A DNA stretch of 64,000 bases from Actinomycetota bacterium. GTDB lineage: Bacteria > Actinomycetota > Thermoleophilia > RBG-16-64-13. Numbering within the stretch: the stretch's first letter is position 1; every line of letters starts with the position of its first letter. The notes beneath the pieces were generated by a model that was given only the letters and a program-made list of their open reading frames with translations, was not told the DNA's origin and did no database searches. Of the stretch, positions 22,687-46,475 are shown in pieces. Where the stretch lies: contig JADQBG010000015.1 of assembly GCA_016278725.1 (NCBI GenBank), forward strand, positions 62,001-126,000, written 5' to 3'. A program made the translations under genes and the position numbers.

Positions 22687-24468
22687 CTAGACCTCGGCGT
22701 CCTTTGACTCGCCGCTCACGCGCGGATCCAACACTGGAGACCAGCCGCATACCTGATCCAACTCGTCGGAGGCCACGTCCCAGACCGTGTCGTGGGGCGG
22801 CAGCTTCTCGTCCGAGAAGAATTGCGGCAGGCGGTCGTCTTCCTTTGTGAATCCGGCTCCGCGGTTGAACTTCCGCTCCATCTCCAGCACGTCTTTGCCC
22901 TGCTGCGCCATACCCGCGACATCGATCTCCTCGCCGTACATGGCCGAGACCATCTCGGGGATGGCGGCCAGCGAGTCGGGCTGATCCAGGCAGGCGAAGG
23001 CCAGGAACACGCAGAGCCCGGTGCTGTCGAAGAAGGCGGCGGTCGCTTCCTGCAGGCCTTGCGAGAGCACGCACTGCCCCGTCTTGGACAGAGGATCGAC
23101 CTGGCCACCCACGTTCAGGATGTTGGTGGCGACGGCGTAACCCGCGGTGTGGTCGGCACCCATGGTGCTGGTCGCGTAGGTGGCGCCGATGCCTTTTACC
23201 GCACGGGGGTCGTAGGCAGGGATCCCCTGGCCCTTGACGGTGGGGATGTGCGCCACGTTCCACAGCTCGCCGGCGTGCTGCGTGCCGTTGCCCATTGCTT
23301 GGCCGAACTCGGTGTTGTTCTTGATGTCCTCGAAGACCGCGAGCATCTTCCCGGTGTCTCCCCAGGGGATCTTGCCCGCGTCCATGGCCACGGCCATGGT
23401 GTCACCCATGTCGATGGTGTCCAGGCCGAGGTCGTCGCACCAGCGGTCCATGTGGGCGATGGCGTCCAGGTCGTCGTTCATGCAGTTGGCGCCGAAGGCC
23501 CAGATGGTCTCGTACTCGACTCCCGAGGAGACGTAGTTGCCGTCCTCGTCGTTGTAGACGTTGGAGCAATGGACCACGCACCCGGTCATGCAGGCGTGCT
23601 CGGGACGGCCACCGCGCTTCTTGGCGCGGTCGGCCAGCTCTTCGCCCGAGATCTTCTCGGCGTTGTCAAAACGGCCGAAGTGGAAGTTCTTGGTGGGCAG
23701 GCCGCCGGCCTCGTTGATGATGTTGACCAGGATGGCGGTGCCGTAGGCGGGGAGGCCCTGACCCGTCACCGGATGCTCTTTGAGCCCGTCGACCAGCGTC
23801 TTGCGGGCGGTCTTGAAGCGCTCTTCGTCGGCCAGTTGGGGGCGCGGAGCTCCTGCGTCGTCCACCACGATCGCCTTGAGGCCGCGCTTGCCCATCACCG
23901 CGCCCACGCCGCCGCGGCCCGCGTGCCGGGCGGGATGGCCTTCGGGATCGGTCACGGCCACGGAGGAGTTGCGCATGCCGTGCTCGCCCGCGGGACCCAC
24001 CTGGATGGTCGCCACTTTCTCACCGTATTTGGCGCGAAGGGCGTCGGCCGTCTCGTAGTTGAGCTTGCCCCAGAGGTCGCCGGCGTCTTCGAGCACGGCC
24101 CCGTCGCTGTTGACCTTGAGAACGTACTTCTTGTCGCCCGGATCACCTTCGACGATGATGGCGCCGATGCCCAGCCGCGCCAGTTTCTGCGAGGCCTGGC
24201 CACCCACGTTGGCTTCCTTGATTCCGCCGGTCAGCGGGCTCTTGGCGCCCACGGACAGCCGCGAGGAGTTCGGGGCGGTGGTCCCCCCCAGCAGGCCGGT
24301 GGCAAAGACGATCTTGTTGTCCGGGCCCAGCGGGTCGGCCTGCGGATCGACCTCGGCGGCGATGATGCTCGAGGTGAGGAAGCGCCCACCCAGGAGCTTC
24401 CAATCAGCCGGCATATCCTCGGTCTTTACCGTACCGTCCGACACGTTCACGCGAATAATCTTCCTCAT
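22687..24468 (-). CDS. aldehyde:ferredoxin oxidoreductase (tungsten-dependent family)
   Basis: ATG 24468 follows GGAGGAG. The 593-residue cytoplasmic enzyme would oxidise aldehydes to acids with ferredoxin, using a tungsto-bispterin and a [4Fe-4S] cluster. Family motifs are GGRFLTSSIIAAEVDP, TAPNSSRLSVGAKSPLTGG and GRGGVGAVMGKRGLKAI. The cluster motif reads CMTGCVVHC (CX3CX3C), one residue longer in the first gap than the second AOR of this window (CX2CX3C); a later Cys (LCVFLAFACLD) may be the fourth ligand. It is downstream of a methanol-dehydrogenase-like Fe-ADH, so the pair could take an alcohol to an acid. Confidence 0.93.
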   Translation of the reverse strand: MRKIIRVNVSDGTVKTEDMPADWKLLGGRFLTSSIIAAEVDPQADPLGPDNKIVFATGLLGGTTAPNSSRLSVGAKSPLTGGIKEANVGGQASQKLARLGIGAIIVEGDPGDKKYVLKVNSDGAVLEDAGDLWGKLNYETADALRAKYGEKVATIQVGPAGEHGMRNSSVAVTDPEGHPARHAGRGGVGAVMGKRGLKAIVVDDAGAPRPQLADEERFKTARKTLVDGLKEHPVTGQGLPAYGTAILVNIINEAGGLPTKNFHFGRFDNAEKISGEELADRAKKRGGRPEHACMTGCVVHCSNVYNDEDGNYVSSGVEYETIWAFGANCMNDDLDAIAHMDRWCDDLGLDTIDMGDTMAVAMDAGKIPWGDTGKMLAVFEDIKNNTEFGQAMGNGTQHAGELWNVAHIPTVKGQGIPAYDPRAVKGIGATYATSTMGADHTAGYAVATNILNVGGQVDPLSKTGQCVLSQGLQEATAAFFDSTGLCVFLAFACLDQPDSLAAIPEMVSAMYGEEIDVAGMAQQGKDVLEMERKFNRGAGFTKEDDRLPQFFSDEKLPPHDTVWDVASDELDQVCGWSPVLDPRVSGESKDAEV

Positions 24469-24593: not shown

Positions 24594-25757
24594 CTACAGG
24601 GCCGACCGGTAGATCTCGACCACGTCGTCCTCGGTCGGGCAACGCGGGTTGGTGAGACCGCAGGCATCCTTCTGCGCATTCTCGGCCATGGTCCGCAGAT
24701 CCTCTTCCTTGACGCCCAACTCGGAGAGCCCGGCGGGGATGCCGATGTCGCTCGAGAGCTGCTTGATGGCGTCCAGGGCCTTCTCGGCGGCGTCGCGCTT
24801 GCTCATGCCTTCGACCGGAACTCCCAGAGCCACGGCGATGTCGACGAAGCGGTCCACCTTGGCGATCATGTTGAAGCGCTCCACCGCGGGCAACAGGATG
24901 GCGTTGCAGACCCCGTGGGGCAGGTCGTAGAAACCGCCCAGCTGGTGGGCCATGGCGTGCACGTGGCCCAGAGAAGCGTTGTTGAAGGCCATTCCCGCCA
25001 GGTACTCGGCGTAGGCCATGTTGTCCCGGGCCACCATGTCCTCGCCGTTGGCCACGGCGCCGCGCAGGTTGTCGGAGATCAGCTCCATGGCCTTGATGGC
25101 GCAGGCGTCGGTCACCGGAGTGGCGGCCGTGGACACATAGGCCTCGATCGCGTGAGTCAGGGCGTCCATGCCGGTTGCGGCCGTCAGGCTGGGGGGCATG
25201 CCCTTGTGGGTGACGGGGTCGTTGATCGCGACTCTCGGGGTCACCTGCCAGTCGACGATGGCCATCTTCACCTTGCGGCTGGTGTCGGTGATGATGCAGA
25301 AGCGGGTCATCTCCGAAGCGGTGCCGGCGGTGGTGTTGATCGCGATGAAGGGCGGCAGAGGCTTGGTGGACTGGTCCACGCCCTCATAGTCGTGGATTTT
25401 GCCGCCGTTCGAGACCACCAGACCGATACCCTTGCCGGCGTCGTGCGGCGAACCGCCGCCGAGGCTGATCAGGGAGTCGCAGTTGTTGTCCGCGTAGACC
25501 TTGGCCCCGTCATGGACGTTCGTGTCGGTCGGGTTGGGAATCACTTCGTCGAAGATGAAGGGCTCGGCGCCCGCTTCCTTGACCAGGCCGACGATCTGAT
25601 CGGTCAGGCCGGCCTTGCTGAGGCCCTTGTCCGTCACGATCAGCGGGCGCTTCATGCCCAGCGCCTTGACCTGGTTCGGGAGTTCCTTCAAAGAGCCGAC
25701 GCCCATCAGGGACACCGTCGGGATGAAGAATCCGTAAGTTTGCTCGCCTACCGCCAT
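24594..25757 (-). CDS. iron-containing alcohol dehydrogenase (NAD-dependent methanol dehydrogenase-like)
   Basis: ATG 25757 has AAGGAGG. The 387-residue group III ADH has the N-terminal NAD domain with LISLGGGSPHDAGKGI, and the C-terminal helical domain with metal ligands in ATGMDALTHAIEAYVS (Asp/His region), HAMAHQLGGFYDLPHG and GVCNAILLP. Overall wording is closest to the methanol/1,3-propanediol dehydrogenase branch. It would interconvert alcohols and aldehydes with NAD. The AOR follows in the same direction, suggesting sequential oxidation. A 13-bp palindrome lies about 150 bases before the start. Confidence 0.93.
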   Translation of the reverse strand: MAVGEQTYGFFIPTVSLMGVGSLKELPNQVKALGMKRPLIVTDKGLSKAGLTDQIVGLVKEAGAEPFIFDEVIPNPTDTNVHDGAKVYADNNCDSLISLGGGSPHDAGKGIGLVVSNGGKIHDYEGVDQSTKPLPPFIAINTTAGTASEMTRFCIITDTSRKVKMAIVDWQVTPRVAINDPVTHKGMPPSLTAATGMDALTHAIEAYVSTAATPVTDACAIKAMELISDNLRGAVANGEDMVARDNMAYAEYLAGMAFNNASLGHVHAMAHQLGGFYDLPHGVCNAILLPAVERFNMIAKVDRFVDIAVALGVPVEGMSKRDAAEKALDAIKQLSSDIGIPAGLSELGVKEEDLRTMAENAQKDACGLTNPRCPTEDDVVEIYRSAL

Positions 25758-25903: not shown

Positions 25904-25916
25904 TTGGACTGTCCAA
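25904..25916. promoter_or_regulatory. operator-like palindrome between Fe-ADH and response regulator genes
   Basis: TTGGAC-T-GTCCAA is a perfect 6+1+6 inverted repeat in the 241-base gap upstream of the Fe-ADH gene. It is a candidate site for the LuxR-type regulator encoded next door. No partner promoter elements could be assigned. Confidence 0.4.
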
Positions 25917-25998: not shown

Positions 25999-26661
25999 CT
26001 AGCCGAGAAGCCCCCGGCGCATCACTTCGCGCACGAGTTCCGCCCTGCGCTCCACTCCCAGAAGATCCATGGCGTGGCGAACGTGGTATTTCACCGTGGA
26101 TTCTGAGAGATACAGCTGTTCGCCAATGCTCTTGTTGGTGTGCCCCTCGGTCAGCAACTCGAGCACCTGGAGTTGGCGCGGGGTGAGTTCCACCTGGCCG
26201 GACTTCTCCGGCAACGCCTCTTCTCCGCTTCGCAGCCGCTCCATGACCCGCTCGGTGATCTGCGGATCGAGCACCGATTGCCCCGCCGCCACCAAACGCA
26301 CGATGCGCTTGAGTTCGTCCAATTCGACGTCCTTGAGAACGTAGCCTTTAGCCCCGGCGGTGATGCACTTGAACAGGCTCTCTTCCTCCATGTAGGTAGT
26401 GAGGATGACGACCTTGGCTTTGGGACGGACCTCCACGATGCGGCGGCAAACCTCGATTCCGGTCTCACTCTTCAACTTGAGGTCGAGCAGGACCACGTCC
26501 GGCTCCAGTTCCTGGACCAGCCTTACGGCGGTCGCCCCGTCCGCCGCCTGTCCCACCACCTCGAGGTCGGCCTCGAGCTCCAGGGTGTACTTGAGTCCCT
26601 GGGTGACGATCTGATGATCATCGACCAGCAGCATGCGGGTGTGCCGGGCCGGTTCGCTCAC
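25999..26661 (-). CDS. LuxR/NarL-family response regulator
   Basis: GTG 26661 overlaps the kinase stop by four bases (GTGA), which fixes this start over the internal ATG at 26634. The 220-residue protein has a receiver domain (10-125) with acidic pocket LLVDDHQ, phospho-acceptor Asp in VVLLDLKLKS and Lys in GYVLKDVE. A GerE-type HTH follows (about 155-215): LTPRQLQVLELLTEGHTNK, then SESTVKYHVRHAMDLLGV. It is the last gene of a coupled Fe-ADH, kinase, regulator operon and may control alcohol-oxidation genes next door. Confidence 0.93.
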   Translation of the reverse strand: MSEPARHTRMLLVDDHQIVTQGLKYTLELEADLEVVGQAADGATAVRLVQELEPDVVLLDLKLKSETGIEVCRRIVEVRPKAKVVILTTYMEEESLFKCITAGAKGYVLKDVELDELKRIVRLVAAGQSVLDPQITERVMERLRSGEEALPEKSGQVELTPRQLQVLELLTEGHTNKSIGEQLYLSESTVKYHVRHAMDLLGVERRAELVREVMRRGLLG

Positions 26662-28592
26662 GAGACGGGCACCCGGACCTCGATCCGCGTGCCCTGCCCC
26701 GGGGCGCTTGCGCAGGTGAAGGACCCGCCCAAACCCCGAGCGCGCTCGCGCATGCCGGAGAGCCCATATCCCTTTGTCTCCGGCGACGGCGAGACGCCTG
26801 CGTCGACTCCGATCCCGTCGTCGGCAACAGCAACGATCAGGTGGCCGTCCACCTGCCCCAGCTCGACGGACACGTGCCGCGCTTTGGCGTGTTTGTAGAC
26901 GTTGAAAAGGGCCTCCTGCACGATGCGATACAACTCGTTCTCTCGCTCGGAGCCGAGGGGCGGCACGTCCTCGGCCACTCGGCAATCGACCTCGACCTGA
27001 TTGAGGTTGAGGTACTCCCGGGCCAACCGGCGAAGCGCGGCGGGAAGCCCGGCCTCCGCTACCTCGGCCGGGGTGAGCTCGAAAATGCTCTGCCGGATCT
27101 CTTGGACTCCCCCCCGCGCCAATTCGCGCAGGAAGCCGATGCGCTCGTGAAGCTCCGTCCCCTCCTCCGTCTTGGCCCGGCACCAGTCGAGGTTGAGACC
27201 GATGCTGTAGAGCACCTGGGCCACGCTATCGTGGAGCTCGCGGGCGATGCGGGCCCGCTCTGCCTGAATGATGCGGTCCTGCTCGACGGCGCTGATCTTG
27301 TGAAGGGCCCGTTCCAGCTCCTGGTGCTTGGCTTCCGTGACCTGCTGCTGACGCACCGCCTGGAGGTAGTGTTCCTCGGCGTGTCGCCTGAGCCGCTCCC
27401 CTTCCTCGTAGAGCCGCGCATTCTCCATCGAAACCGCCGTCTGGCTCCCCAATATGCGCAGGATCTCGGTCTCGCTGAGCTCCAGGTCCCAGGCTTCCCG
27501 GGTCAGCGCCATGATGGTGCCGATCAGCCGGTCCCCGCGGAGCATGGGAATGCATAGCGCTGAGCGCAGAGGCCGCGGTCCTTCGGGGCCGCTCCGCGCA
27601 GCTTCTTTCGACTTTGCCTGCAACACCGGCCAGAGGTGCTCGAGTGCGCGGGCTTCCAGCCAGAGCGGCTCGCCGCCCGATCCCATCGCGGAGTGCATGA
27701 TGCGCTGCTGTTCCGGGCTCAGCCGGCAAAAACCCGAGGCTCCGGAAGATTCGGTCTCCCCCTCGACGAGCACCAGGACATCGCTGGCGGCGGTGAGTTC
27801 CTTGACCGTGCGCACCAGCTGATCGACGAACGACTCGAGGCCGCTGGTGGTGTGCGTGAGCGCCTGCGAGATGGCACCGAGGGAGAACAGGGCGCGGTCG
27901 AGCCTGCGCGCCTGCATGGCGGTGCGCCGGTAGAGCGAGGCGTTGTCGATCGCGAGCGCCAGCGAGCGGCCCAATCCGCGGCAGACGTCCAGGTCCCGGG
28001 GAGCGATCTCGTGGGCGGCGAGGGCCAGCATGGCCAGCACCCGTTCCCCGGTCTTGAGCGGCAAGAACACCAGCAGGGGATCCAGCGGGGCCACGGCCCA
28101 GTCTCGATCGACCACCAGGTCCTGCAGCCTCAAGGCCTCGGCGAACGCCGGGCGCGCGAGCAATTGGTCCACCGTCAGCTCCCGGTCGATACCAAGGGCG
28201 TTGGCCTGCCGCGCGGCCTCGAAGTGCAGCGTCTCGCTCGAAGGCGGCTGCGCAAAAACGTGGATGGCGGCCCAGGGGTACCCCATCTGGGTGGTGAGAA
28301 TGTCGAGCGACTCCTGGATGACCTGGTCCAGTTCGAGCGTTCGGCTGATGTGCTGCGTTGCCGCGAGCACCGTCGAAACCCGCACCACCGAGCGCTGCAG
28401 CTCTTGGCTAAGCTGCTCGGCCTCGAGCCTGGCGGTCTCCAGCAACCGGTTGCTGGTTTCCAGTTCCTCGATCTTCTGCCGGAGCGCCGGGTAATAAGTC
28501 TTCTTCGAGCAGTGAATCCCGGTCAGGAGTTCGACGGCCTCCTCCCGGCGGCTGTCCATGGCCCGCCGGAAATTGTCGCGCCCGTCGCTCAC
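26658..28592 (-). CDS. soluble GAF-domain histidine kinase (NarX/HisKA_3 type)
   Basis: GTG 28592 overlaps the preceding Fe-ADH stop by four bases. The 644-residue protein has no membrane helix. It has a coiled N-terminus (about 35-75), two GAF domains (about 80-225 and 245-410), a coiled segment, a HisKA_3 domain with ERARIARELHDSVAQVLYS (phospho-His in ELHDSV) and a HATPase domain (ELYRIVQEALFNVYKHAKA; DDGIGVD; GYGLSGMRERA). It should sense an intracellular ligand and phosphorylate the regulator encoded at 25999. Confidence 0.93.
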   Translation of the reverse strand: MSDGRDNFRRAMDSRREEAVELLTGIHCSKKTYYPALRQKIEELETSNRLLETARLEAEQLSQELQRSVVRVSTVLAATQHISRTLELDQVIQESLDILTTQMGYPWAAIHVFAQPPSSETLHFEAARQANALGIDRELTVDQLLARPAFAEALRLQDLVVDRDWAVAPLDPLLVFLPLKTGERVLAMLALAAHEIAPRDLDVCRGLGRSLALAIDNASLYRRTAMQARRLDRALFSLGAISQALTHTTSGLESFVDQLVRTVKELTAASDVLVLVEGETESSGASGFCRLSPEQQRIMHSAMGSGGEPLWLEARALEHLWPVLQAKSKEAARSGPEGPRPLRSALCIPMLRGDRLIGTIMALTREAWDLELSETEILRILGSQTAVSMENARLYEEGERLRRHAEEHYLQAVRQQQVTEAKHQELERALHKISAVEQDRIIQAERARIARELHDSVAQVLYSIGLNLDWCRAKTEEGTELHERIGFLRELARGGVQEIRQSIFELTPAEVAEAGLPAALRRLAREYLNLNQVEVDCRVAEDVPPLGSERENELYRIVQEALFNVYKHAKARHVSVELGQVDGHLIVAVADDGIGVDAGVSPSPETKGYGLSGMRERARGLGGSFTCASAPGQGTRIEVRVPVS

Positions 28593-29797
28593 GCGAGGCC
28601 GTTGCCTGAGTGGAGCGGATCCTGCCCGAGGTCCTCGACCGGCAGGCTGAGCACCGCGCGGAAGAGCTCGCCCAGTTCCGCCTCGCCGAGGTCACGGGGA
28701 TTGGTGACCAGGCACACGTCGTCGAGGGCGCCCTCGACCATGGCGGGCAGGCAATCCACCGGGAGCCGCTGGGCTTCTGCCACGACCACGGGCAGACCGA
28801 CATCGCGCGCCAGGTCCCTCACCGCTGCGACGGAACGCAAGGCGGCGTCGCGGGTGCTCAGATCTTCGACCCTCTCCCCCATCGCGCGGGCGATCCGGGA
28901 ATAGCGCTCGGTGTCGGCGATCAGGTTGTACTCCATGATGTGGGGCAGGACCACGGCGTTCGCCGTCCCGTGAGCCACGTCGAGCATCCCCCCGATCTGG
29001 TGGGTGATGGCGTGCGTGGCCCCCAGCGCCGCGTTCGACAAGCAGATGCCGGCCTTGAGCGAGGCCATCGCCATGTTGACCTTGGCCGTGAGGTTGTCCC
29101 GGCTGCCCACGGAGGCCCGGAGGTTCTGCGCGATCAGCTCGATCGCGCTCAAGGCGTGCACGTCGGTCAGCGGAGTGGCCGCGATGCTGACGTAGGACTC
29201 GATGGCGTGCGTCAACGCGTCCATGCCCGTGTAGGCCGTCAGTTCAGCATCCTTGGTGGTCAGGAGCAATGGATCGGTAATGGAGATGTCCGGCACGAGG
29301 CTCTTCGAGCAGAGCACGAGCTTCACGCGCCGCCCGGTGTCGGTGATCACGGCAAACTGCGATACGTCGGCGCCGGTTCCGGCAGTCGAGGGGATCATCA
29401 CCATGGGCGGCAGGGGGCGCGTCACCAGGTCGACGCCCGCATAGTCAGAGATGCGGCCGCCGTGGGTGACCAGGATGCCCACGCCCTTGGCGGCGTCCAT
29501 CGGGCTGCCACCGCCCACCGCCAGGATGGAATCGCAGGATTCCTGGCGGTACAGTTCGGCTCCCCGCCGGACCTCGGTGTCCCTGGGATTTTCGGACACG
29601 TCGTCCCAGATCACCCATTCGATTCCGAACTCTTCGAGATGGGGCAGGACTTTGTCCACCCAGCCGGCCTCCCGCACTCCGGGATCCGTCGCCAGAAAGA
29701 CGCGGTGAGCGCCAAGCCGGGTGAGACTGCTGCCCGCCTGACCCAGGGAGTCGACCCCGAAGATGATCTCGGGAATTACGAACTTGGTGATTCTCAC
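28589..29797 (-). CDS. iron-containing alcohol dehydrogenase, ErcA-like by context
   Basis: The 402-residue group III ADH has SILAVGGGSPMDAAKGVGI in the NAD domain, PSTAGTGADVSQFAVITD, YTGMDALTHAIESYVS, and the metal region THAITHQIGGMLDVAHG. It is first in an operon with a kinase and a response regulator, joined by four-base overlaps. In pseudomonads an Fe-ADH of this family (ErcA) belongs to the ethanol-oxidation signalling hierarchy with sensor kinases. That parallel suggests a sensory or signal-generating role here, but catalytic alcohol oxidation is equally allowed by the sequence. Confidence 0.9.
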   Translation of the reverse strand: MRITKFVIPEIIFGVDSLGQAGSSLTRLGAHRVFLATDPGVREAGWVDKVLPHLEEFGIEWVIWDDVSENPRDTEVRRGAELYRQESCDSILAVGGGSPMDAAKGVGILVTHGGRISDYAGVDLVTRPLPPMVMIPSTAGTGADVSQFAVITDTGRRVKLVLCSKSLVPDISITDPLLLTTKDAELTAYTGMDALTHAIESYVSIAATPLTDVHALSAIELIAQNLRASVGSRDNLTAKVNMAMASLKAGICLSNAALGATHAITHQIGGMLDVAHGTANAVVLPHIMEYNLIADTERYSRIARAMGERVEDLSTRDAALRSVAAVRDLARDVGLPVVVAEAQRLPVDCLPAMVEGALDDVCLVTNPRDLGEAELGELFRAVLSLPVEDLGQDPLHSGNGLA

Positions 29798-29918
29798 GAG
29801 ATGCTCTTCCTATCTGTCCCAATGCGCAGAATGGTTAACCATGGATTGTACGCAGCATCGAGGCGAAGCGGCAAGCCGCCCAGGGTTCCGTCCGGCGTAT
29901 CGGCTACCATTTGGGCAG

Positions 29919-31480: not shown

Positions 31481-34400
31481 ATGGCCACACTTGGAATCGA
31501 TATTGGCTGCATCAGTGTAAAGATGGCGGTGGTGGGCTCCGGCGCCGAGCGGGAGATCCTGGAGGCCGCGGGTAAGGCCGACACCTTCCTGCAACTCGCC
31601 CCGGGCGCCCCCGGCATGCCCCACTCTTCCTCCCCGCCGCTCCTGGTGACCAGATACCAGCGGATAAAGGGAACTCCGGCCGAGACCGCACAGTCTCTGC
31701 TCGAAGAAGTGCTGGCCGCCCTTCCTCCAGACACCATCAGCGGCATCCGCATGACCGGCTCCGGGGGCAGACTGCTCGCCAAGAGCCTCGATGCCCCCTA
31801 CGAGAATGAATTCAAGGCCATCGCCCGGGGCGTGGGCGTCCTGCACCCCGACGTCGACCTGGTCTTCGAGATGGGCGGCGAGACCTCCAAGTTCATCCGC
31901 CTGGAGCGGGACCCGGAAGGCCGCGTGGGCATCTGCGACTACCAGGGCAACGGTGACTGCGCCGCCGGAACCGGATCCTTCATGGACCAGCAGGCCAACC
32001 GCTTGCTCTACGAGATCGAAGACGTCGGCGAGATCGTCCTGGGAGCGGGCAAGGCAGCCACCATCGCGGGGCGCTGCTCGGTCTTTGCCAAGTCGGACAT
32101 GATCCATTCGCAGCAAAAGGGCTATCAGCCGCCCGAGGTGCTCAAAGGCCTGTGCAACGCGGTGGTGCGTAACTACCGGGGTACCATCACCAAGGGCAAA
32201 GAGATCGACGGCCGGGTGGCCTTCATCGGCGGAGTAGCCGCCAACCAGGGCGCCGCCCGGGCCATGGCCGAAGCCTTCGAGATCGGCGAGGACGAGTTCC
32301 TCATCCCCGCTTATTACGCCTGGATGGGCGCCATCGGCGCCGCGCTGATCGAGGCCGAGATCGAAGGCGGAGTGGGCGCCATCGACGCGGCCGCCATGAC
32401 CACCGCGGGCGAGGACCGCTTCCCCACCGCCGCACCGCTGTTGATGGATCGCGTGGTGCTCCTTCGCGACCGGGTAAAGCCGTATGAGTTCAAGAGCAAC
32501 GGCAACGGTAACGGCGGCTCGGCGGCGGCCGGGTCGGCAACCGGGAACGGCGGTTCCGCCCACGAGCCCGTGCCGGTCTACCTGGGCGTCGACATCGGCT
32601 CGGTTTCCACCAACCTGGTGGTGCTCGACGAGGCCGGCGACCTGATCAAAGAGATCTATCTGAAGACCGAAGGCCGTCCGGTCGAGGTGGTCAACCGGGG
32701 CTTGGCCGAGATCCAAGAGGAAATCGGCGACCGCATCCTCGTCAGGGGCGTGGGCACCACCGGTTCCGGGCGCGAGTTGATCGGCGAACTGATCGGCGCC
32801 GACACCGTGAACGACGAGATCACCGCGCACAAAACCGGAGCCACCTTCATCGGCCGCAAGCTGACCGGGCGGATCCCCGACACCATCTTCGAGATCGGCG
32901 GCCAGGACTCCAAGTACATCAGCCTGCAGGACGGGGTGGTGGTCGACTTCGCCATGAACGAGGCCTGCGCGGCGGGCACCGGCTCCTTCCTCGAGGAACA
33001 GGCGGAGAAGTTGGGCGTGCAGATCAAGGGCGAGTTCGCCGAACTCGCGCTGGCCAGCGAAGCCCCGGTGCGCCTGGGCGAGCGCTGCACGGTATTCATG
33101 GAGCGCGACGTCAACTCCTATCTTCAGCGCGGCGCCTCCACCGGAGACCTGGTGGCGGGCCTGGCCTACTCCATCGCCTACAACTACCTGAACCGCCTGG
33201 TGGGCACCCGCAGGATCGGCGAGACCATCTACTTCCAGGGCGGCACCGCCTACAACGACTCGGTGGCCGCCGCTTTCAGCCAGATCCTGCAGCGGGACAT
33301 CATCGTGCCGCCGCACAACGGCGTGGTGGGGGCCATCGGCATGGCCCTGCTCGCCCGCGAGAAGATGGAAGCCACCCACGACGAAACCGGCTTCCGGGGC
33401 TGGGACCTCGAGGCGGTGGACTACACCATCAAGGAGTTCACCTGCAAAGGCTGCACCAACGAGTGCGACATCCGGCAGTTCACCATCGGCGAGGAGAAGA
33501 CCTACTGGGGAGACAAGTGCTCCGACCGCTACCGCAAGCGGGCCAAGGTCGACAAGCTGCCGGTGATCCCCGATCTGGTCGACTATCGCGAGAAGCTGGT
33601 CATGTCCTACGTGACCGCCGACGATGTCGAGACTTCCAAGCTGGTCTCGAGCGGCTCGGACGCTCCCCGGGGAACCATTGGAGTGCCCCGGGCGATGTAC
33701 ACCTACGACCGCCTGCCCTTCTGGGCCACCTTCTTCCGCAACTGCGGCTTCGACGTGATGGTCTCGGGCGAGACCGACCGGCGCATCCGGGAAAAGGGCG
33801 TGGAGAATTCGGTGGCCGAGCCCTGCTTCCCCATCAGGGTGGCGCACGGACACGTGGCCGAGCTTCTCGACCGCGGGGCGGATCGGGTGCTGGTCCCGAA
33901 CCAACTGAACGAAGAGACCGACCACCCCGAGTGGGAGTCTCACGCCTGTCCCTGGGGCCAGACCCTTCCCTTCGTGATCGCGTCGGCTCCCGGCTTCGAG
34001 GCTGCGGCCGACAAGCTGCTGATGCCCACCATGCACTTCCGGCGAGGGCCGGAGTACGTCTCCCAGACGCTGGTCGAGCTGATGAAACCCCTATCCGTGG
34101 ACCGCAAGACCGTTGAAGCCGCTGTGAAAGAGGCCTACGCGGCGCAGTCCGAATTCCGCCAGGACTTGCTGCGCATGGGCGCCCAGGCCCTCAGCGATCT
34201 GAGCGAGAAGGATGAACTGGGGATCGTGCTGGTCGGCCGGCCGTACAACATGTACGACGGCGGGATCAACATGGACGTGCCGGCCAAGCTCAGGAAATAC
34301 TACGGGGTGAACGTGATCCCCATGGACTTCCTGCCGCTCTGGGACGAGGACGTGCGTTCGGTCAACCCCAACATGTACTGGAATTACGGGCGCAAGATCC

Positions 34401-34651
34401 TGCAGGCGGCCAAGGTGATCGCCGCGTACCCCAATCTGCACGTCATCTACATGACCAACTTCAAGTGCGGCCCGGACAGCTACATCAAGCACTTCATGGC
34501 CGAGGCCAGTCCCGAGCCCTTCCTGACCCTTCAGTTCGACGAGCACACCAATGACGCGGGAGCGATGACCCGCTGCGAAGCCTACCTGGATAGCAAGGGC
34601 TTCCTGCGCTGGTGGAGCCGGGAGCGGGCCGACGTCGCCCGCTCGGCATAG
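31481..34651 (+). CDS. BadF/BadG/HgdC-type acyl-CoA dehydratase activase, two ASKHA domains plus DUF2229
   Basis: The 1056-residue protein has a first ASKHA ATPase domain (1-300; GIDIGCISVKMAVV), a Gly/Asn/Ser linker (about 340-365), a second ASKHA domain (366-640; LGVDIGSVSTNLVVLDE) and a DUF2229 region (about 650-1056; KGCTNECDIR). Both ATPase domains keep the two cluster cysteines known from HgdC (CAAGTGSF with RCSVF, and CAAGTGSF with RCTVF), so one chain could hold the bridging [4Fe-4S] cluster of the usual homodimer. Such activases energise electrons for dehydratases or reductases. The usual C-terminal portion is the next gene. Confidence 0.9.
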   Translation: MATLGIDIGCISVKMAVVGSGAEREILEAAGKADTFLQLAPGAPGMPHSSSPPLLVTRYQRIKGTPAETAQSLLEEVLAALPPDTISGIRMTGSGGRLLAKSLDAPYENEFKAIARGVGVLHPDVDLVFEMGGETSKFIRLERDPEGRVGICDYQGNGDCAAGTGSFMDQQANRLLYEIEDVGEIVLGAGKAATIAGRCSVFAKSDMIHSQQKGYQPPEVLKGLCNAVVRNYRGTITKGKEIDGRVAFIGGVAANQGAARAMAEAFEIGEDEFLIPAYYAWMGAIGAALIEAEIEGGVGAIDAAAMTTAGEDRFPTAAPLLMDRVVLLRDRVKPYEFKSNGNGNGGSAAAGSATGNGGSAHEPVPVYLGVDIGSVSTNLVVLDEAGDLIKEIYLKTEGRPVEVVNRGLAEIQEEIGDRILVRGVGTTGSGRELIGELIGADTVNDEITAHKTGATFIGRKLTGRIPDTIFEIGGQDSKYISLQDGVVVDFAMNEACAAGTGSFLEEQAEKLGVQIKGEFAELALASEAPVRLGERCTVFMERDVNSYLQRGASTGDLVAGLAYSIAYNYLNRLVGTRRIGETIYFQGGTAYNDSVAAAFSQILQRDIIVPPHNGVVGAIGMALLAREKMEATHDETGFRGWDLEAVDYTIKEFTCKGCTNECDIRQFTIGEEKTYWGDKCSDRYRKRAKVDKLPVIPDLVDYREKLVMSYVTADDVETSKLVSSGSDAPRGTIGVPRAMYTYDRLPFWATFFRNCGFDVMVSGETDRRIREKGVENSVAEPCFPIRVAHGHVAELLDRGADRVLVPNQLNEETDHPEWESHACPWGQTLPFVIASAPGFEAAADKLLMPTMHFRRGPEYVSQTLVELMKPLSVDRKTVEAAVKEAYAAQSEFRQDLLRMGAQALSDLSEKDELGIVLVGRPYNMYDGGINMDVPAKLRKYYGVNVIPMDFLPLWDEDVRSVNPNMYWNYGRKILQAAKVIAAYPNLHVIYMTNFKCGPDSYIKHFMAEASPEPFLTLQFDEHTNDAGAMTRCEAYLDSKGFLRWWSRERADVARSA

Positions 34652-34661
34652 GAGGACGATT

Positions 34662-36035
34662 TTGAGCAGCACCACGAGAAACCAAGGCGCGAACGGCAAC
34701 GGGCACGGCTCCTCCCAGGCGGCCCACGAGGCTTTCCCGCGGCTTTCGCCCTCGGCGGCCCGGGGAGCCGACAGCAGCCCCCTGGTCTCGGCCGACGTCG
34801 ATCTGACCGGCCGCGAACTCTACATTCCCCAGATGCCTTACGGCGGTTCCTTCCTGCTGGCCGCGGCGCTGCGTTCCATCGGGCTGGACGCCAAGGTGAC
34901 TCCCGATTCCGATGCGCGCACGCTCGAGTTGGGCGGGCGCTACACCTCGGGGGACGAGTGCTATCCCCAGAAGGTGGTGATGGGCGACTTCATGAAGCTC
35001 ATCGAGGACGAGGGGATCGATCCAGGCAAGCTCGCCCTGCTGCTGCCCACCGCCAATGGCCCCTGCCGCTTCGGTCAGTATGCGGCTCTTCAGCGGCGGC
35101 TGATGGACGATCTGGGCTACGAGGACGTGGTGATCCTCTCCATCACCTCGGCCGACGGTTACGCCGGCATCGGCGAGCACGCGCAGGAGCTGATCCGCAC
35201 CGCCTGGCGCACCGTGGTGGCCAACGACATCTTGATGAAGCTGCTGCTCAAGACCCGGCCGTACGAGGTGAACCCGGGTCAGACCGATGAGGTCTACCAG
35301 AAGGGCCTCGAGCAGGTGGCCGCGGTGGTGTCACGCCCCCAGGTGGCCCACGGCAAGCGGCTTGACGAGCTCAAAGAGGCGCTGCGCCGAGTGAAGGACG
35401 ATTTCGCGGCCATCCCGGTTCGCGACGAGGAACGTCCGTTGATCGGCGTGGTGGGCGAGATCTTCTGCCGGCTGAACACCTTCTCCAACGATGAGCTCAT
35501 CCGCCGCATCGAAGCCGAGGGCGGAGAGTGTTGGCTGGCCGGAGTAGGCGAATGGCTCTGGTACACCAACGAAGAACGCTTCCGGCGCTTCCGCGAGGAA
35601 AAGCGGCGGGTTTCCAAGGAGTGGCTGAAGCACTGGATCACCACCAGGGTGCAACACCGCGACGAACACGCGCTGATGACGGTGTTCGAAGACGTGTTCC
35701 GGGGTTACGAAGAGCCGGAGGTGCCCGAACTTCTGGAGTACTCGCGCCCCTACCTGCCGCACAGCGGAGCGATGGGCGAAATGGTGCTCTCCACCGGCGG
35801 GGCGATCTACCTCCATCACAAAGGCGCCGACGGAGTGGTCGACATCAGCCCCTTCTCCTGCATGAACGGGATCGTGACTGAAGCCGTCTATCCCCGGGTG
35901 AGCCGCGAGCACGACGACATGCCCATCCGCGTCTTCTACTTCGACGGCACCCAGGGCGACCTGGACCGCGACGTCGGCATCTTCCTGGAACTGGCGCAGA
36001 CGTATAAGCGGCGCAAGAAGGTTCAGAGGGCGTAA
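34662..36035 (+). CDS. activase-associated DUF2229/HgdB-like protein
   Basis: TTG 34662 has GGAGG nearby and lies 10 bases after the activase stop. The 457-residue protein corresponds to the C-terminal part that is often fused to long BadF-type activases of about 1400 residues. Likely iron-sulfur cysteines are in GDECYPQKVVMGD, NGPCRFGQY and PFSCMNGIVTEA. The N-terminal 40 residues are low complexity (NGNGHGSSQ), echoing the linker of the partner. The two proteins probably form one complex. No HgdA or BcrA-D type catalytic subunit is present in the window. Confidence 0.85.
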   Translation: MSSTTRNQGANGNGHGSSQAAHEAFPRLSPSAARGADSSPLVSADVDLTGRELYIPQMPYGGSFLLAAALRSIGLDAKVTPDSDARTLELGGRYTSGDECYPQKVVMGDFMKLIEDEGIDPGKLALLLPTANGPCRFGQYAALQRRLMDDLGYEDVVILSITSADGYAGIGEHAQELIRTAWRTVVANDILMKLLLKTRPYEVNPGQTDEVYQKGLEQVAAVVSRPQVAHGKRLDELKEALRRVKDDFAAIPVRDEERPLIGVVGEIFCRLNTFSNDELIRRIEAEGGECWLAGVGEWLWYTNEERFRRFREEKRRVSKEWLKHWITTRVQHRDEHALMTVFEDVFRGYEEPEVPELLEYSRPYLPHSGAMGEMVLSTGGAIYLHHKGADGVVDISPFSCMNGIVTEAVYPRVSREHDDMPIRVFYFDGTQGDLDRDVGIFLELAQTYKRRKKVQRA

Positions 36036-39576: not shown

Positions 39577-40377
39577 CTACCCCTCGATCTGCCCGGCTCT
39601 CACCGCCTGGAGGTAGTCGCCGCAGTACTCGTCATTTCCCAGGAGCATGTCGCTGGTCCTGATCGAGGCCATGATTTGCACGTCGAGCGGGTCGATGATT
39701 GCGCTGGTAAGGCCCGCCCCCATCATCAGAGTGAGAAAGTGCCGGTTGATGATCTTGCGCTTCGGCAGACCGTAGGAGATGTTGGAGAGCCCACAGGTGC
39801 TTTTGATTCCCGGGAGTTCCCGGTTCATCCGGGCGAGAGCATCGAGAACCATGACCCCTTTGGTCTGATCGGTGCTGATCGGCTGAACCAAGGGATCGAT
39901 GAAGGTCTTCTCCCGGGGGATCCCCAGTTCCTCCAGCCCAGCAGACAGCAGCTTCGCTCGGGAAACGATTTCATCGGAATCCGCAGGCAGTCCGGTGTCG
40001 TCCATGCAGAGCGCGATGACCGAACAGGCCTTTCCCTCCAAGAAGGGAGCCATCTGCTCCCAGCGCTCGGTCTCCAGACTGATCGAGTTGATCATGGGCT
40101 CGCGCCGAGCCAATTCGTAGGCCATCTCCAGCACGGCCGGGTCTGGGCTGTCCAGAGTAAGGGGCAGGTCGACCGCGCCCTGAATCACCTCGAGCAACCA
40201 GCGCATGTCCTCGGCCTCATGCCCGATGCGGGCGCCGGCGTTCACGTCGATGTAGGCAGCGCCGGCTTCGGCCTGCTGCTTCACATCCTCCGCGACGTAG
40301 CCGGCATCGCGGTTCGCCACCGCCTCCTGGACGGCGCTGCGCGAGGTGTTGATGCGTTCTCCTATGACCACGAACAT
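39577..40377 (-). CDS. methyltetrahydrofolate:corrinoid methyltransferase (pterin-binding family)
   Basis: ATG 40377 has AAGGAG five bases upstream. The 266-residue TIM-barrel protein has the pterin-binding family motifs VIGERINTSR, YIDVNAGARIGHEAEDM, LTLDSPDPAVLEMAYE, INSISLETER and STCGLSNISYGLPKR (Asn/Ser folate contacts). Members move methyl between a corrinoid protein and tetrahydrofolate, as AcsE in acetogens or MtgA in glycine betaine demethylation. It ends the long cluster that also encodes a corrinoid protein and two MttB-like enzymes, so the likely direction is methyl-corrinoid to methyl-THF. Confidence 0.9.
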   Translation of the reverse strand: MFVVIGERINTSRSAVQEAVANRDAGYVAEDVKQQAEAGAAYIDVNAGARIGHEAEDMRWLLEVIQGAVDLPLTLDSPDPAVLEMAYELARREPMINSISLETERWEQMAPFLEGKACSVIALCMDDTGLPADSDEIVSRAKLLSAGLEELGIPREKTFIDPLVQPISTDQTKGVMVLDALARMNRELPGIKSTCGLSNISYGLPKRKIINRHFLTLMMGAGLTSAIIDPLDVQIMASIRTSDMLLGNDEYCGDYLQAVRAGQIEG

Positions 40378-40422
40378 GCAGACTCCTTCATTTTCTCGAT
40401 CCACGTCCTCTCGGGGGTGCCA

Positions 40423-42432
40423 CTAGAGGCCCACGATGCGCTCGACCAGGCCCGGCTCGGGGACATAAGGCAGGGTGATCTGGCCTCGCTCCGTGTTCTC
40501 CCGGTTCCAGTCGCGTGCGGTATCCATGGCCGGCTGATTGCGTCCCCAGGAACGGCGGGCGATGCCTCCCATCACGTCCCACTCGACAGCGGAGCGGATG
40601 ATCTCGTCCACCCGCGGGCTGCCATCGAGCACGAGGGCGTAGCCGGTGTTTATCGCCTTGCCGATGCCCACGCCGCCCCCGTTTGAGGCCACCACCAAGG
40701 TCATTCCCCGGGCGGCGTTGCCCGCCCAGCAATGGAAGGCCATCTCGGCCATGATACGCGAGCCGTCGTAGATGTTTGCCGTCTCCCGGTAGGGCGAGTC
40801 GGTGCCGGAAACATCGTGGTGATCCCGTCCCAGCACGATGGGGCCCACCTCCCCGTCCCTCACCATCTGATTGAACTTGAGCGCAATGCGGACCCGCCCC
40901 TCGGCGTCGGAGTAGAGAATCCGCGCCTGAGAGCCCACCACCAAGCGATTCTTCTTGGCGTCGCGGATCCACACGTAGTTGTCGCGGTCTTGGCCGCCTC
41001 GCTCCGGGTCGATCAGGCTCATGGCCGCCGCGTCGGTTTTGTCCAGATCGCCGGGATCCCCGCTGGCACACACCCAGCGAAACGGCCCAAAGCCTTTGTC
41101 GAAGCAGATCGGGCCCATGAGGCTCTCGACGTAGGAGGGATAGATGAAGCCTCCGCGGCTGTCCACTCCGTTTCGCGCGACCTCGGTCACGCCCGCATCG
41201 AAGACCGCCTTGAGAAAGGCGTTGCCATAGTCCCAGAAGCGGGTGCCCCGCTGCTCGGTCATCACCCGGATGAGTTCGAATTGCCGGCGGAGCGAACGAT
41301 CCACTTCGCGGGCATAGGCCTGGGGATCGTCGGCGAGCAGCTTGCGCGCCTGGGCAAAACTGTAGCCCGCCGGCACGTACCCGCCGTCATAGGCGGCGTG
41401 ACAGGAGGTCTGATCAGATGCCAGTTCCACGGTGATCTCGTGGTCCACCACGTACTGCCAGAGATCGACCACGTTGCCGTGATAGGCGATGGATTCCGCC
41501 CGGCCTTCCCGCTTGGCCGCGGCCACCCAAGCGAAGATCTCCGCCAGATCGGCCGAGGCCCGTTGGACCCAGCCCTGCTCGAGCCGGGTTTGGATCCGCG
41601 AGTCGTCGACCTCCGCGGTAACGCTCACCGCGCCGGCGATATCGGCGGCCTTGGGTTGCGCCCCGCTCATGCCCCCCAAGCCCGAACTCAGGTAGAGCTT
41701 CCCCGCCAGACTGGCCGATTCGGGCAGCCCCAGGTAGAGCCGGCCGGCGCTGAGGAGGGTGATGTAGGTGCCGTGCACTATCCCCTGCGGACCGATGTAT
41801 ATCCAGCCGCCTGCGGTCATCTGGCCGTAGTTGGCCACGCCCAGCTGCGCGGCCCAGTGGAAGTCCTTCGCGTTGTCGTATTCCCCCACGGTGAGGCCGT
41901 TGGTGTTGATCACCCGGGGGGCCTCGCGCCGGCTGGCGAAGAGGCCGACCGGATGACCCGAGGCGATCACCAGCGTCTGATCCTCGCGCATCTGCTCCAA
42001 ATAGCGCTTGACCAAGCGATACTGCAGCCAGTTCTGGAAGACCTGCCCGGTCTCCCCGTAGGTCACCAGTTCGTAGGGATAGAGGGCGACGTCGAAGTCC
42101 AGGTTGTTGTCTATGTTGAGCTGCAGGCAACGCGCTTCGAGGATGCCCTTGTACTGGTCGACCGGCTTGGCCTTGAGATTTCCTTCGGGACGGTAGCGGT
42201 AGGCGTAGATGCGGCCGCGCGTCCTCAGTTCTTCCAAGAACTCGGGCGCCAGGGTTTCATGCAGTCCGGGCGGGACGTAGCGCAGGGCGTTCTTCACCGC
42301 GATGACGGTATCCTCGGCGTTCAGGTCATATCCGCGGTCCGGAGCCCGGCGGATCCCCGGGGAGAAATGCGGAGCCGGCGGCAGTTCCGAGGGTAGGGTG
42401 ATCTGCATGGCGTCCCGGGCGATGCTATCCAC
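40423..42432 (-). CDS. hutU: urocanate hydratase
   Basis: GTG 42432 has GAGG six bases before it and overlaps the cyclodeaminase gene by eight bases; ATG 42408 (MQITLPSELPP) is the other plausible start. The 669-residue protein is the long form of the family. Motifs include ASGHPVGLFASRREAPRVI, GGWIYIGPQGIVHGT, LSSGLGGMSGAQPKAA (NAD region), SDQTSCHAAYDGG and DGSRIMAEMAFHCWAGNAA. It hydrates urocanate to imidazolonepropionate using tightly bound NAD, the second step of histidine breakdown. Neighbours supply all other steps. Confidence 0.95.
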   Translation of the reverse strand: MDSIARDAMQITLPSELPPAPHFSPGIRRAPDRGYDLNAEDTVIAVKNALRYVPPGLHETLAPEFLEELRTRGRIYAYRYRPEGNLKAKPVDQYKGILEARCLQLNIDNNLDFDVALYPYELVTYGETGQVFQNWLQYRLVKRYLEQMREDQTLVIASGHPVGLFASRREAPRVINTNGLTVGEYDNAKDFHWAAQLGVANYGQMTAGGWIYIGPQGIVHGTYITLLSAGRLYLGLPESASLAGKLYLSSGLGGMSGAQPKAADIAGAVSVTAEVDDSRIQTRLEQGWVQRASADLAEIFAWVAAAKREGRAESIAYHGNVVDLWQYVVDHEITVELASDQTSCHAAYDGGYVPAGYSFAQARKLLADDPQAYAREVDRSLRRQFELIRVMTEQRGTRFWDYGNAFLKAVFDAGVTEVARNGVDSRGGFIYPSYVESLMGPICFDKGFGPFRWVCASGDPGDLDKTDAAAMSLIDPERGGQDRDNYVWIRDAKKNRLVVGSQARILYSDAEGRVRIALKFNQMVRDGEVGPIVLGRDHHDVSGTDSPYRETANIYDGSRIMAEMAFHCWAGNAARGMTLVVASNGGGVGIGKAINTGYALVLDGSPRVDEIIRSAVEWDVMGGIARRSWGRNQPAMDTARDWNRENTERGQITLPYVPEPGLVERIVGL

Positions 42433-43048
42433 GGAGCACCTCGCGGACCCGCTCGTCGGCGGAACGGCGCTTGTGCTCAATTCCGGCCCGCAGGCTTTCG
42501 AGTTCCTGTCGAATCGTCTCGACGAACTGCCGATCGTCCACCGAGCCCAGGTTGACCTCCACGTTGTAGAGGGCGCCCATCCCCCCGGCATAGGCCAACA
42601 GCGCGCCCACCCCGGCATCGGTCACCGCCGGTTCGTAACCCTGCCGGGCGGCGAGCAGGCAGAGGTCGAGCACCCGGTCGCAGAGACGTGCGGTCTCGAG
42701 CGGCACGCTGGTGGCGTGCCGCATGGCCGCCTGCACCGCCTCCTTGCGCGCACGCTGCTCCTCTTCGGTTCCCTTGGGCAGCCGGTAGGCGGCGATAACC
42801 CCCTCGTAGGAAGCGGCGTCTCGGTCGAAACCGTCGGCCAGCCGTTCCCGGGCCCGGTCAAAATCGCCGATCAGGTCCTCCACCCGGCTACCCTGCATGG
42901 TGCCTGCCCGCTTGGCCGCGGTCAGCCGCGAGACCATGGCTCCGAGCGCTGCCCCCAAAGCTCCCGCAAGCGCGGAAACGCTTCCCCCTCCGGGCACGGG
43001 CGAGTCCGAGGCGATGCTCTCGAGAAGTGCCTTCGTCTGAGGTTCCAT
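42425..43048 (-). CDS. formiminotetrahydrofolate cyclodeaminase / methenyl-THF cyclohydrolase family protein
   Basis: ATG 43048 follows AAGGAGG. The 207-residue all-helical protein matches the FTCD C-terminal/FchA family: SPVPGGGSVSALAGALGAAL at the N-terminus, then RLTAAKRAG, and DAGVGALLAYAGGMGALYN. In context it would release ammonia from 5-formimino-THF to give 5,10-methenyl-THF. In many animals this domain is fused to the formiminotransferase; here it is a separate gene, ten bases downstream of it and overlapping hutU. FchA-type hydrolysis of methenyl-THF is an alternative activity. Confidence 0.9.
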   Translation of the reverse strand: MEPQTKALLESIASDSPVPGGGSVSALAGALGAALGAMVSRLTAAKRAGTMQGSRVEDLIGDFDRARERLADGFDRDAASYEGVIAAYRLPKGTEEEQRARKEAVQAAMRHATSVPLETARLCDRVLDLCLLAARQGYEPAVTDAGVGALLAYAGGMGALYNVEVNLGSVDDRQFVETIRQELESLRAGIEHKRRSADERVREVLRG

Positions 43049-43058
43049 TGCGGCCTCC

Positions 43059-44024
43059 TTAGTGTCGGCGAGCCGCTTCGCCGGGCTCGTCTGCCCCAGG
43101 GCGCGGCTCCCGGGTCTCGAGTTCCCTGCCGAGGCCTTCGAGCAGCCGGGTCTCGATTATTTGCTCCAGAGAGAAGTCGTGTATTTGTAGGTAGTGGCGG
43201 ATGACCTCCTCGAACGCCGCGAGCGGAGCCAGGCCGATCAACTCGCACCCTGCCACACTCACCCCGTGTCTGGCCGCCTCGAAGCGGACGGTCTCGACCA
43301 CTCGGTGGATCGGGGTCTCCTCGTACTGGACCAGGTTCATCGAAACCTGAACCTGACCCTTATCCTCCAGCTCGAGCCCCATGGCCTTGACGTTGACGTA
43401 GCCCCCGGTCTTGGCCCTGACGGCGTTGGCTATGCGTCGGGCGATCTCGACTTCGGTGGTCGCCAGGTTGACGTTGAAGGCAATCAGGGGGAAGCGCACG
43501 CCGACGGCGGTCGCTCCCGACTTCTCGTTGAACTCGGCGGGTCCCGCGTCCGGCGCCCACTCGGGCTCCGCCAACTTCTCCCGCAGAGCCTCGTACTCGC
43601 CGCGGCGCACGTCGGCCAGGTTGCGCCTCTCCGGCCGCGTGGCCGCGTCCTCGTAGTAGTAGACGGGAACCCCCAGTTCGCCGATGGCCCGTCCCAAGCG
43701 CCGGGCCAATTCGACCGCCTCTTCGGTGGAGATGCCCCGCAGGGGGATGAAGGGAGCCACGTCCACGGCGCCCATCCGCGGATGACCCCCCTCATGGGTG
43801 CGCATGTCGATCAGTTCGTAGGCTTTGCGGCACAGGGCCACCGTGGCGTCCAGCACGGCCTCGGGAGGCCCCACGTAAGTGATCACGCTCCGGTTGTGGT
43901 CCGCGTCTGAGGAGTAGTCCAGCAACTCCACGCCGGAGGCCCGGCGGATCTGCTCCACCACTTCCTCGACCAGCGCCAGATCTCGGCCCTCGCTTATGTT
44001 GGGCACGCATTCCAGCACCTGCAT
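43059..44024 (-). CDS. ftcD: glutamate formiminotransferase
   Basis: The 321-residue protein begins with the family hallmark LECVPNISEGRD. Other motifs are DHNRSVITYVG, DMRTHEGGHPRMGAVDVAPF with the catalytic His region, PVYYYEDAA, and FNVNLATTEVEIARRIA. It moves the formimino group of N-formiminoglutamate, the product of imidazolonepropionate hydrolysis, to tetrahydrofolate and frees glutamate. The ATG abuts the hutI stop with no gap (TAGATG), and the cyclodeaminase follows after ten bases, so the three steps are co-translated. Confidence 0.95.
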   Translation of the reverse strand: MQVLECVPNISEGRDLALVEEVVEQIRRASGVELLDYSSDADHNRSVITYVGPPEAVLDATVALCRKAYELIDMRTHEGGHPRMGAVDVAPFIPLRGISTEEAVELARRLGRAIGELGVPVYYYEDAATRPERRNLADVRRGEYEALREKLAEPEWAPDAGPAEFNEKSGATAVGVRFPLIAFNVNLATTEVEIARRIANAVRAKTGGYVNVKAMGLELEDKGQVQVSMNLVQYEETPIHRVVETVRFEAARHGVSVAGCELIGLAPLAAFEEVIRHYLQIHDFSLEQIIETRLLEGLGRELETREPRPGADEPGEAARRH

Positions 44025-45353: not shown

Positions 45354-46453
45354 GCGGATCTCCGCTCCGCCTGCGGCAGCGGCGCCATGGAGATGGCCCC
45401 CTCTCTGCACGCTCCCAGGCAAACCGCGCAGCCGCGGCACTTCTCCTCGTGAAACAGCAGCACGCGCTCCTCGCCCCTGCCCACTATCTCGAAAGCGCCG
45501 AAGGGGCAGCGGCGGGCGCAGCGGCCGCAGGTGCTGCAGAGCGATTCCTCCCGCTGGGCCACGTGCCGCGACCGCGGCCAGAGCTTCTGCGCGCCCATTT
45601 CCTCCGCCACCAGGTGGGGAAAGCAGCAATCCGAACAGCAGTTGCAAATCGCCCCGCGCACCTTATCCCCATCACGCACCAATTCGCCCGAATGCATCAG
45701 GCCCGCCTGGTGCGCCTCCCGCAGAATCTCCTTGGCCCTTTCCTTTGATATCTCCCAACCCAGATCTCGGTCGTTCTCGAAGCGCAGACAGACGTTGACG
45801 GGTTTTTCGCACTCGCCCATCATCGCCCGGCAATTGCACGGCCACAGATAGACGTGCTCCACCTCGTCGATCACGGCGGCGGCCTCGTCGGGCAGCAGGT
45901 ACTCGGCGTTCTCCAGCCGCCGATCAGGCTCCTCCCCCCGCTTGAGCGCTTCGATCTGCTCCCGCTTGAGTTCGCGGTAGTAGTCGCGCTCCCAGTCGTT
46001 GAGCCGGGTGCGAAGTTCGGGAGAGATGTCTTTCCAGCCCTCGTGAATGGCCCAGATCTCAAACCGGGTGTGGAAGTCGGCAGCGCGGAGTACAAGACCG
46101 GTCATGCCGTCGCGGTGCGTGGCGAAGGCCAGTTCCGAGCCCTGCCTGCCCATACAGATGCCCTCACGCAGCAGTTGAGGCTCGGCGGCCTTACCGCCCG
46201 CCTCGACCCAGGCGAGATCCACAAGCCCGCGGCGCCAGGCGCGCATCACGAAGCGGTCGAGCGAGGCCGGCAAGTTGTCCTGCAACCGTTCCCGCAGCCG
46301 CCTCTCGACCTCCTCGAGGGTCAGGTCGCCACCGTCCAGGAGCAGCACGAGCTCCATCTCTGCCGGCTCCACGAAGCGGTCGAGCTGCGCGGACAGGAAC
46401 TCTGGAACCGAAAAGAGCTCCATGAATCTCTGGACCTTATCGCGGGGAGTCAT
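45350..46453 (-). CDS. cysteine-rich 2[4Fe-4S] ferredoxin-domain protein of unknown function
   Basis: ATG 46453 follows AGGAAGG. The 367-residue protein starts with a helical region that resembles a winged helix (LTLEEVERRLRERL; RFVMRAWRRGLVDLAW), has a central Cys-rich part (PCNCRAMMGECEKPVNVC; AICNCCSDCCFPH), and ends with two ferredoxin motifs (CSTCGRCARRCPFGAF; CRGCAVCLGACREGAI). It can thus hold two [4Fe-4S] clusters and perhaps one more. It lacks the ATPase domain of RamA-type corrinoid activators. Its position between the corrinoid protein and hutI genes suggests an electron donor or activator, which is an inference. Confidence 0.75.
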   Translation of the reverse strand: MTPRDKVQRFMELFSVPEFLSAQLDRFVEPAEMELVLLLDGGDLTLEEVERRLRERLQDNLPASLDRFVMRAWRRGLVDLAWVEAGGKAAEPQLLREGICMGRQGSELAFATHRDGMTGLVLRAADFHTRFEIWAIHEGWKDISPELRTRLNDWERDYYRELKREQIEALKRGEEPDRRLENAEYLLPDEAAAVIDEVEHVYLWPCNCRAMMGECEKPVNVCLRFENDRDLGWEISKERAKEILREAHQAGLMHSGELVRDGDKVRGAICNCCSDCCFPHLVAEEMGAQKLWPRSRHVAQREESLCSTCGRCARRCPFGAFEIVGRGEERVLLFHEEKCRGCAVCLGACREGAISMAPLPQAERRSA

Positions 46454-46475
46454 GGGCCTTCCTCTCTGGGGCCGC

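Follow-up and report, generated by a model that had tools for sequence, protein, structure and literature searches.

Two-component systems controlling alcohol oxidation together with an iron-containing alcohol dehydrogenase (Fe-ADH) of the ErcA family are described for mycobacteria and pseudomonads, and we analysed a related locus, a triad of Fe-ADH, histidine kinase and response regulator genes, in a stretch of 64,000 nucleotides (the window) from an Actinomycetota bacterium (assembly GCA_016278725.1, contig JADQBG010000015.1, positions 62,001 to 126,000). In Mycobacterium (M.) smegmatis the kinase MnoS phosphorylates residue D60 of the regulator MnoR, a protein that binds the mno promoter, and growth on 1,3-propanediol is lost in mnoSR mutants (PMC11303327). 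In pseudomonads, induction of the ped cluster via AgmR requires both YiaY, the ErcA homologue, and PP_2683 (ErcS), a kinase co-transcribed with it, loss of either one repressing the cluster, and a review from 2026 states it as unresolved whether alcohol is sensed by the kinase itself or by redox coupling with YiaY (PMC12997753). Comparison of sequences and gene neighbourhoods gives good support to the triad of the window being a recurring module, composed of an ErcA-clade Fe-ADH, a probably cytosolic GAF kinase with a conserved N-terminal motif and a NarL-type regulator, encoded beside genes for alcohol/aldehyde oxidation. We assign a probability of roughly 0.53 to the more specific reading of an ErcA/MnoS-type alcohol-response module in which the Fe-ADH serves as sensory partner docking on the kinase and the regulator drives the neighbouring genes for a second Fe-ADH and an aldehyde:ferredoxin oxidoreductase (AOR).

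The triad compared with MnoSR and ErcA-ErcS-ErbR

Reading the open reading frames and their junctions directly confirmed the three genes as placed in the preliminary description, with both junctions being GTGA overlaps. The features of the triad are:

28589..29797, minus strand: ErcA-clade Fe-ADH, 402 aa, assigned by Pfam Fe-ADH, NCBIfam, tree, metal ligands and D144/Q147
28589..28592, minus strand: GTGA overlap of Fe-ADH stop and kinase start, the plus strand reading TCAC
26658..28592, minus strand: soluble histidine kinase, 644 aa, with N-terminal motif, probable extra GAF region, GAF, HisKA_3 (H454) and HATPase_c
28479..28532, minus strand: motif ELLTGIHCSKKTYYPALR, kinase residues 21-38, common to kinases beside ErcA-type Fe-ADHs, proposed docking element
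26658..26661, minus strand: GTGA overlap of kinase stop and regulator start, the plus strand reading TCAC
25999..26661, minus strand: NarL/LuxR-type response regulator, 220 aa, with Pfam Response_reg and GerE and phospho-acceptor D60

The MnoSR type, i.e. the mno operon (MSMEG_6242-6236) and its relatives in Tsukamurella and Mycolicibacterium, shares with the window an ErcA-clade Fe-ADH, a soluble HisKA_3 kinase with the motif LTG..SK..YYP and a NarL-type D60 regulator, and both adjoin an alcohol dehydrogenase gene as target, a likely one in the window. The MnoSR sequences compared were those of Tsukamurella, M. chubuense and other genomes, M. smegmatis itself being covered from papers only. 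Unlike the MnoSR type, the 644-aa kinase of the window is longer by about 190 residues, which separate the motif from the GAF and likely form another GAF, and the triad neighbours a yiaY-like Fe-ADH and an AOR instead of mdo/mycofactocin genes. The ErcA-ErcS-ErbR system of Pseudomonas (YiaY, PP_2683/yiaZ, AgmR) resembles the window in combining an ErcA-family Fe-ADH with a kinase and a LuxR-type regulator of alcohol oxidation, whereas its kinase is a hybrid kinase, its regulator gene lies elsewhere in the cluster and its targets are pyrroloquinoline quinone-dependent alcohol dehydrogenases. The AOR/ADH pathway of anaerobes has Fe-ADH and AOR genes side by side as in the window; to our knowledge its usual description includes no dedicated ErcA-type two-component triad. 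The triad is of a kind already known, the AOR linkage and the longer kinase being the new variation.

A metagenome-assembled Actinomycetes genome of the sister species, G001 (JAGXFV010000030), retains the whole arrangement including both overlaps. In G013 (JAHJSA010000021), from another genus of the family, the Fe-ADH (69-71% identical to that of the window) and the regulator are encoded on one strand with the kinase gene divergent, followed by an AOR gene. The triad was also found in several Mycobacteriales and other Actinomycetota, among them a Tsukamurella plasmid on which Fe-ADH, kinase and regulator adjoin mdo, encoding an N,N-dimethyl-4-nitrosoaniline (NDMA)-dependent methanol dehydrogenase. 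Because the three genes are kept together in the sister species, in another genus with different order, in Mycobacteriales and in other Actinomycetota, their association extends beyond chance. A contig scan with very narrow peptide patterns found the triad only in the two relatives, and a plasmid search with the whole kinase as query returned no match.

What is conserved is the association of the genes and not the overlaps, although the double 4-bp overlap recurs in Tsukamurella and in genome G490 and the Fe-ADH/kinase overlap in G444. The preliminary description had taken the overlaps to mean that the proteins are made in step. This did not hold, as the kinase gene of G013 lies on the opposite strand and start-codon overlaps of -4 occur at about 4 of the 31 same-strand gene pairs of the window (rough gene call); the GTGA overlaps are ordinary in themselves, and we rejected tuned stoichiometry as their meaning. 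MoxR/VWA genes by the G013 triad were likewise rejected as synteny shared with the mno operon, the similarity being weak and of general AAA kind for the former and absent for VWA. Two further loci were observed. In the triad region of the M. chubuense plasmid (L075 5906-7559), an extra regulator and a GAF protein are encoded beside an alkene monooxygenase operon. In Rhodococcus sp. ZPP (L077 7433-9522) the regulator gene by a motif kinase is split by an IS256 transposase gene with no Fe-ADH nearby, apparently a decayed module.

Signatures of the kinase-linked Fe-ADHs and their kinases

The Fe-ADH of the window is ErcA-like, since its best NCBIfam match is ErcA (NF041833) with 465 bits compared to 326.5 bits for the next family, a margin of about 139 bits; Mycobacteriales members score 420-470 bits on the ErcA model, the Tsukamurella Fe-ADH reaching 462. 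Together with the signalling triad being of known type, this bears out the ErcA link proposed in the preliminary description. In two trees, of 29 and 31 sequences, all kinase-linked Fe-ADHs form a single clade (support 100/100 and 100/99) that includes the ErcA-like Fe-ADH of the window, its clade partners being the Fe-ADHs encoded next to MnoS-type kinases in Mycobacteriales. The second Fe-ADH of the window groups with yiaY-like enzymes outside this clade in both trees. D144 (window numbering) is present in 10/10 clade members, with Glu at this position in 21/21 other Fe-ADHs. Q147 is likewise found in 10/10 clade members and Gln is not among the six commonest residues of the 21 others; because one non-clade sequence (L038) shows TQW at that position, Gln147 is rare but not absent outside the clade, leaving Asp144 as the clean marker. 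E10, K5, W46 and E75 are also characteristic of the clade. The NCBI ErcA model favours the same residues, as replacing D144, Q147, W46, E10 or K5 in silico lowers its score by 1.6 to 4.6 bits, with the effect of D144 being small. In the Fe-ADH family, the AGTxxE loop is known to sit by the site binding nicotinamide adenine dinucleotide (NAD).

The kinase shows the Pfam domains GAF, HisKA_3 and HATPase_c with a single GAF detected (residues 251-389), its length and alignment making a second GAF in residues ~65-225 likely; an AlphaFold2 model built from three sequences had a predicted local distance difference test score (pLDDT) of 50, too poor to reveal it. No stretch is hydrophobic enough for a clear membrane helix, suggesting that the kinase is probably cytosolic. 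Its N-terminus carries the motif with the general form LTGIxxSKxTYYP, encoded directly downstream of the ErcA-type Fe-ADH, in which ELLTGIHCSKKTYYPALR resembles the MnoS-type N-terminus (LTGLRSGKSSYYPQYR in Tsukamurella), whereas elsewhere the kinases are only ~26-30% identical. Whole-length alignment of the window kinase with MnoS types failed to align the motif because of the extra domain, and N-terminal profile models were therefore used.

A model built from five N-termini was searched in 396 Actinomycetota genomes and then in a second scan of 197. In the first scan, strong matches were confined to G000, G001, G314 and G332; G323 (E 0.0086) and four other genomes gave marginal ones. G314, G332 and G323 all carry the triad; of the other four, G174, G381 and G230 showed neither an Fe-ADH nor a kinase match near the marginal one, and inspection of the fourth, G067, covered only a short stretch. 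The second scan added the motif kinases of G490 and G444, each encoded directly behind an ErcA-clade Fe-ADH, the G444 contig ending ahead of any visible regulator. All five kinases outside the model set (G314, G332, G323, G490, G444) lie directly downstream of an ErcA-clade Fe-ADH, and models built from one group recover the other group at the motif (E ~6e-6 to 5e-4 in the best cases, weaker in others). The natural reading of these sequences would be a shared docking site.

Regulator, promoter elements and candidate targets

The best NCBIfam matches are MadS (NF047786, 232.5 bits) for the kinase and MadR (NF047785, 193 bits) for the regulator; kinase and regulator of the same triad type from Tsukamurella exceed the MadS and MadR cut-offs. 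Downstream of the triad, on the same strand and after a gap of 241 bp, lie the second Fe-ADH and the AOR. The neighbouring genes and putative control elements are:

24594..25757, minus strand: second Fe-ADH, yiaY-like, outside the ErcA clade, likely catabolic and likely target (NCBIfam, trees)
22687..24468, minus strand: AOR (Pfam), likely target, an AOR also adjoining the G013 triad
25904..25916, minus strand: perfect palindrome TTGGACAGTCCAA upstream of the Fe-ADH/AOR genes, candidate regulator site
29845..29874, minus strand: sigma-70-like promoter TTGCCG-18-TACAAT upstream of ErcA, also in G001
29831..29842, minus strand: palindrome ATGGTTAACCAT (TTGGTCAACCAT in G001) just downstream of the ErcA promoter, possible autoregulatory site (weak)

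The palindrome TTGGACAGTCCAA is part of a stretch that G001 has in identical form, and it is the sole match in the genome at up to 1 mismatch; a single copy is roughly allowed by chance too, and footprinting with two close genomes is weak. The upstream regions in G013 and Tsukamurella gave no convincing match. In Tsukamurella (L074), similar palindromic stretches (CCTACCCGAYCGG...) are located upstream of 3974 and 7971, i.e. of mdo and of the ErcA-kinase-regulator operon, as if both were served by one regulator.

Elsewhere in the window, a second AOR-like gene (51716-53641) shares a 4-base overlap with an MttB-like methyltransferase gene (50283-51719). In the region 39577-51719, genes for histidine ammonia-lyase (47158-48759) and urocanase (40423-42618) are interspersed among those for a corrinoid protein, a methyltetrahydrofolate:corrinoid methyltransferase and two MttB-family methyltransferases that lack an internal stop. 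At 31481-36035, two acyl-CoA dehydratase activase stretches occur in a 1056-aa protein, which is followed by a 457-aa protein without NCBIfam match at E 1e-15.

The Fe-ADH as sensory partner or as enzyme

Several findings weigh against the Fe-ADH acting as sensory partner in an ErcA/MnoS-type module. The Fe-ADH (465 bits), the kinase (232.5 bits) and the regulator (193 bits) stay below the curated cut-offs of 550 for ErcA, 500 for MadS and 300 for MadR, and the kinase was likened to Pseudomonas ErcS by description, not by sequence. Two motif-bearing plasmid kinases of Rhodococcus, recovered with the whole kinase, lie in transposase-rich DNA and lack an Fe-ADH within 6 kb, and the motif could be kinase structure inherited by common descent, not a docking site. 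As for the targets, the family commonly has AORs of this type, the AOR at the G013 triad being no closer to the window AOR than other family AORs, and close AORs exist in family members in which the triad was not found, leaving the AOR unsupported as a co-inherited fifth gene. The adjacent Fe-ADH and AOR genes had been proposed as target beforehand: an AOR adjoining the triad in both genera, in differing arrangements, and the candidate conserved palindrome upstream speak for this, whereas a second Fe-ADH of the P0004 type is absent from the G013 triad and the AOR there shows no special closeness. Because such AORs are common and G013 is without the second Fe-ADH at its triad, the two genes are plausible rather than proven as regulator targets.

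The strongest alternative, which we nevertheless regard as unlikely, is the Fe-ADH being an ordinary catabolic alcohol (diol) dehydrogenase sharing an operon with its two-component system, the kinase GAF sensing alcohol or another signal. GAF domains commonly bind small ligands, and the metal ligands D193, H197, H262 and H276 of the Fe-ADH are intact, its NAD-binding GGGS motif is present and its closest solved structure is a 1,3-propanediol oxidoreductase; the intact active site leaves room for an ordinary catalytic role and counts against a purely sensory one. MSMEG_6239, a putative 1,3-propanediol dehydrogenase, is under MnoSR control (PMC11303327). However, the Fe-ADH belongs to a separate kinase-tied clade with its own signature, apart from the nearby catabolic Fe-ADH, and pseudomonad ErcA genetics indicate a regulatory role (PMC12997753).

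The intact active site would equally suit a slightly less probable reading, regulation by catalysis only, according to which the Fe-ADH makes aldehyde or NADH sensed by the GAF without physical contact, and the requirement for H281 of YiaY in pseudomonads fits such a catalytic need (PMC12997753). This gives the conserved N-terminal kinase motif no role, however, and AlphaFold3 predicts a contact of YiaY and PP_2683 via their N-terminal domains (PMC12997753). Chance clustering of three functionally unlinked genes, to which the commonness of 4-bp overlaps and the rarity of the triad among genomes of the window's own family might point, is contradicted by the comparative data, the module recurring in several families with differing gene orders, and is highly improbable.

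We infer the triad of the window to be, in function, a divergent member of the ErcA/MnoS kind, set apart by its longer kinase and its AOR neighbours. This suggests a model according to which the Fe-ADH, as a dedicated sensory partner and not the main catabolic enzyme, would bind alcohol (or aldehyde) and NAD(H), contact the kinase via its N-terminal motif and set its activity. The kinase would then, via H454, phosphorylate the regulator at D60, and the phosphorylated regulator would activate the adjacent Fe-ADH/AOR genes, whose products may interconvert alcohol, aldehyde and acid in an actinobacterium that looks anaerobic. NosP-NahK offers an analogy only, a separate soluble sensor protein modulating its cognate kinase, but NosP senses nitric oxide and is unrelated to Fe-ADH (PMC12997753). 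More tentatively, at somewhat less than even odds, the Fe-ADH may have turned into a sensor subunit across all these systems, with the D144/Q147-marked ErcA-clade proteins docking on the kinase motif and reporting alcohol or NAD redox state in Pseudomonas, mycobacteria and the AOR-linked actinobacterial lineage alike.

Our comparison places the mycobacterial MnoSR-type triads and the AOR-linked triad in one group and names residues separating regulatory from catabolic Fe-ADHs. The short, mutable kinase motif opens the idea of an enzyme acting as sensor to direct experiments. If true, the triad would show an enzyme family put to use as a signalling subunit.

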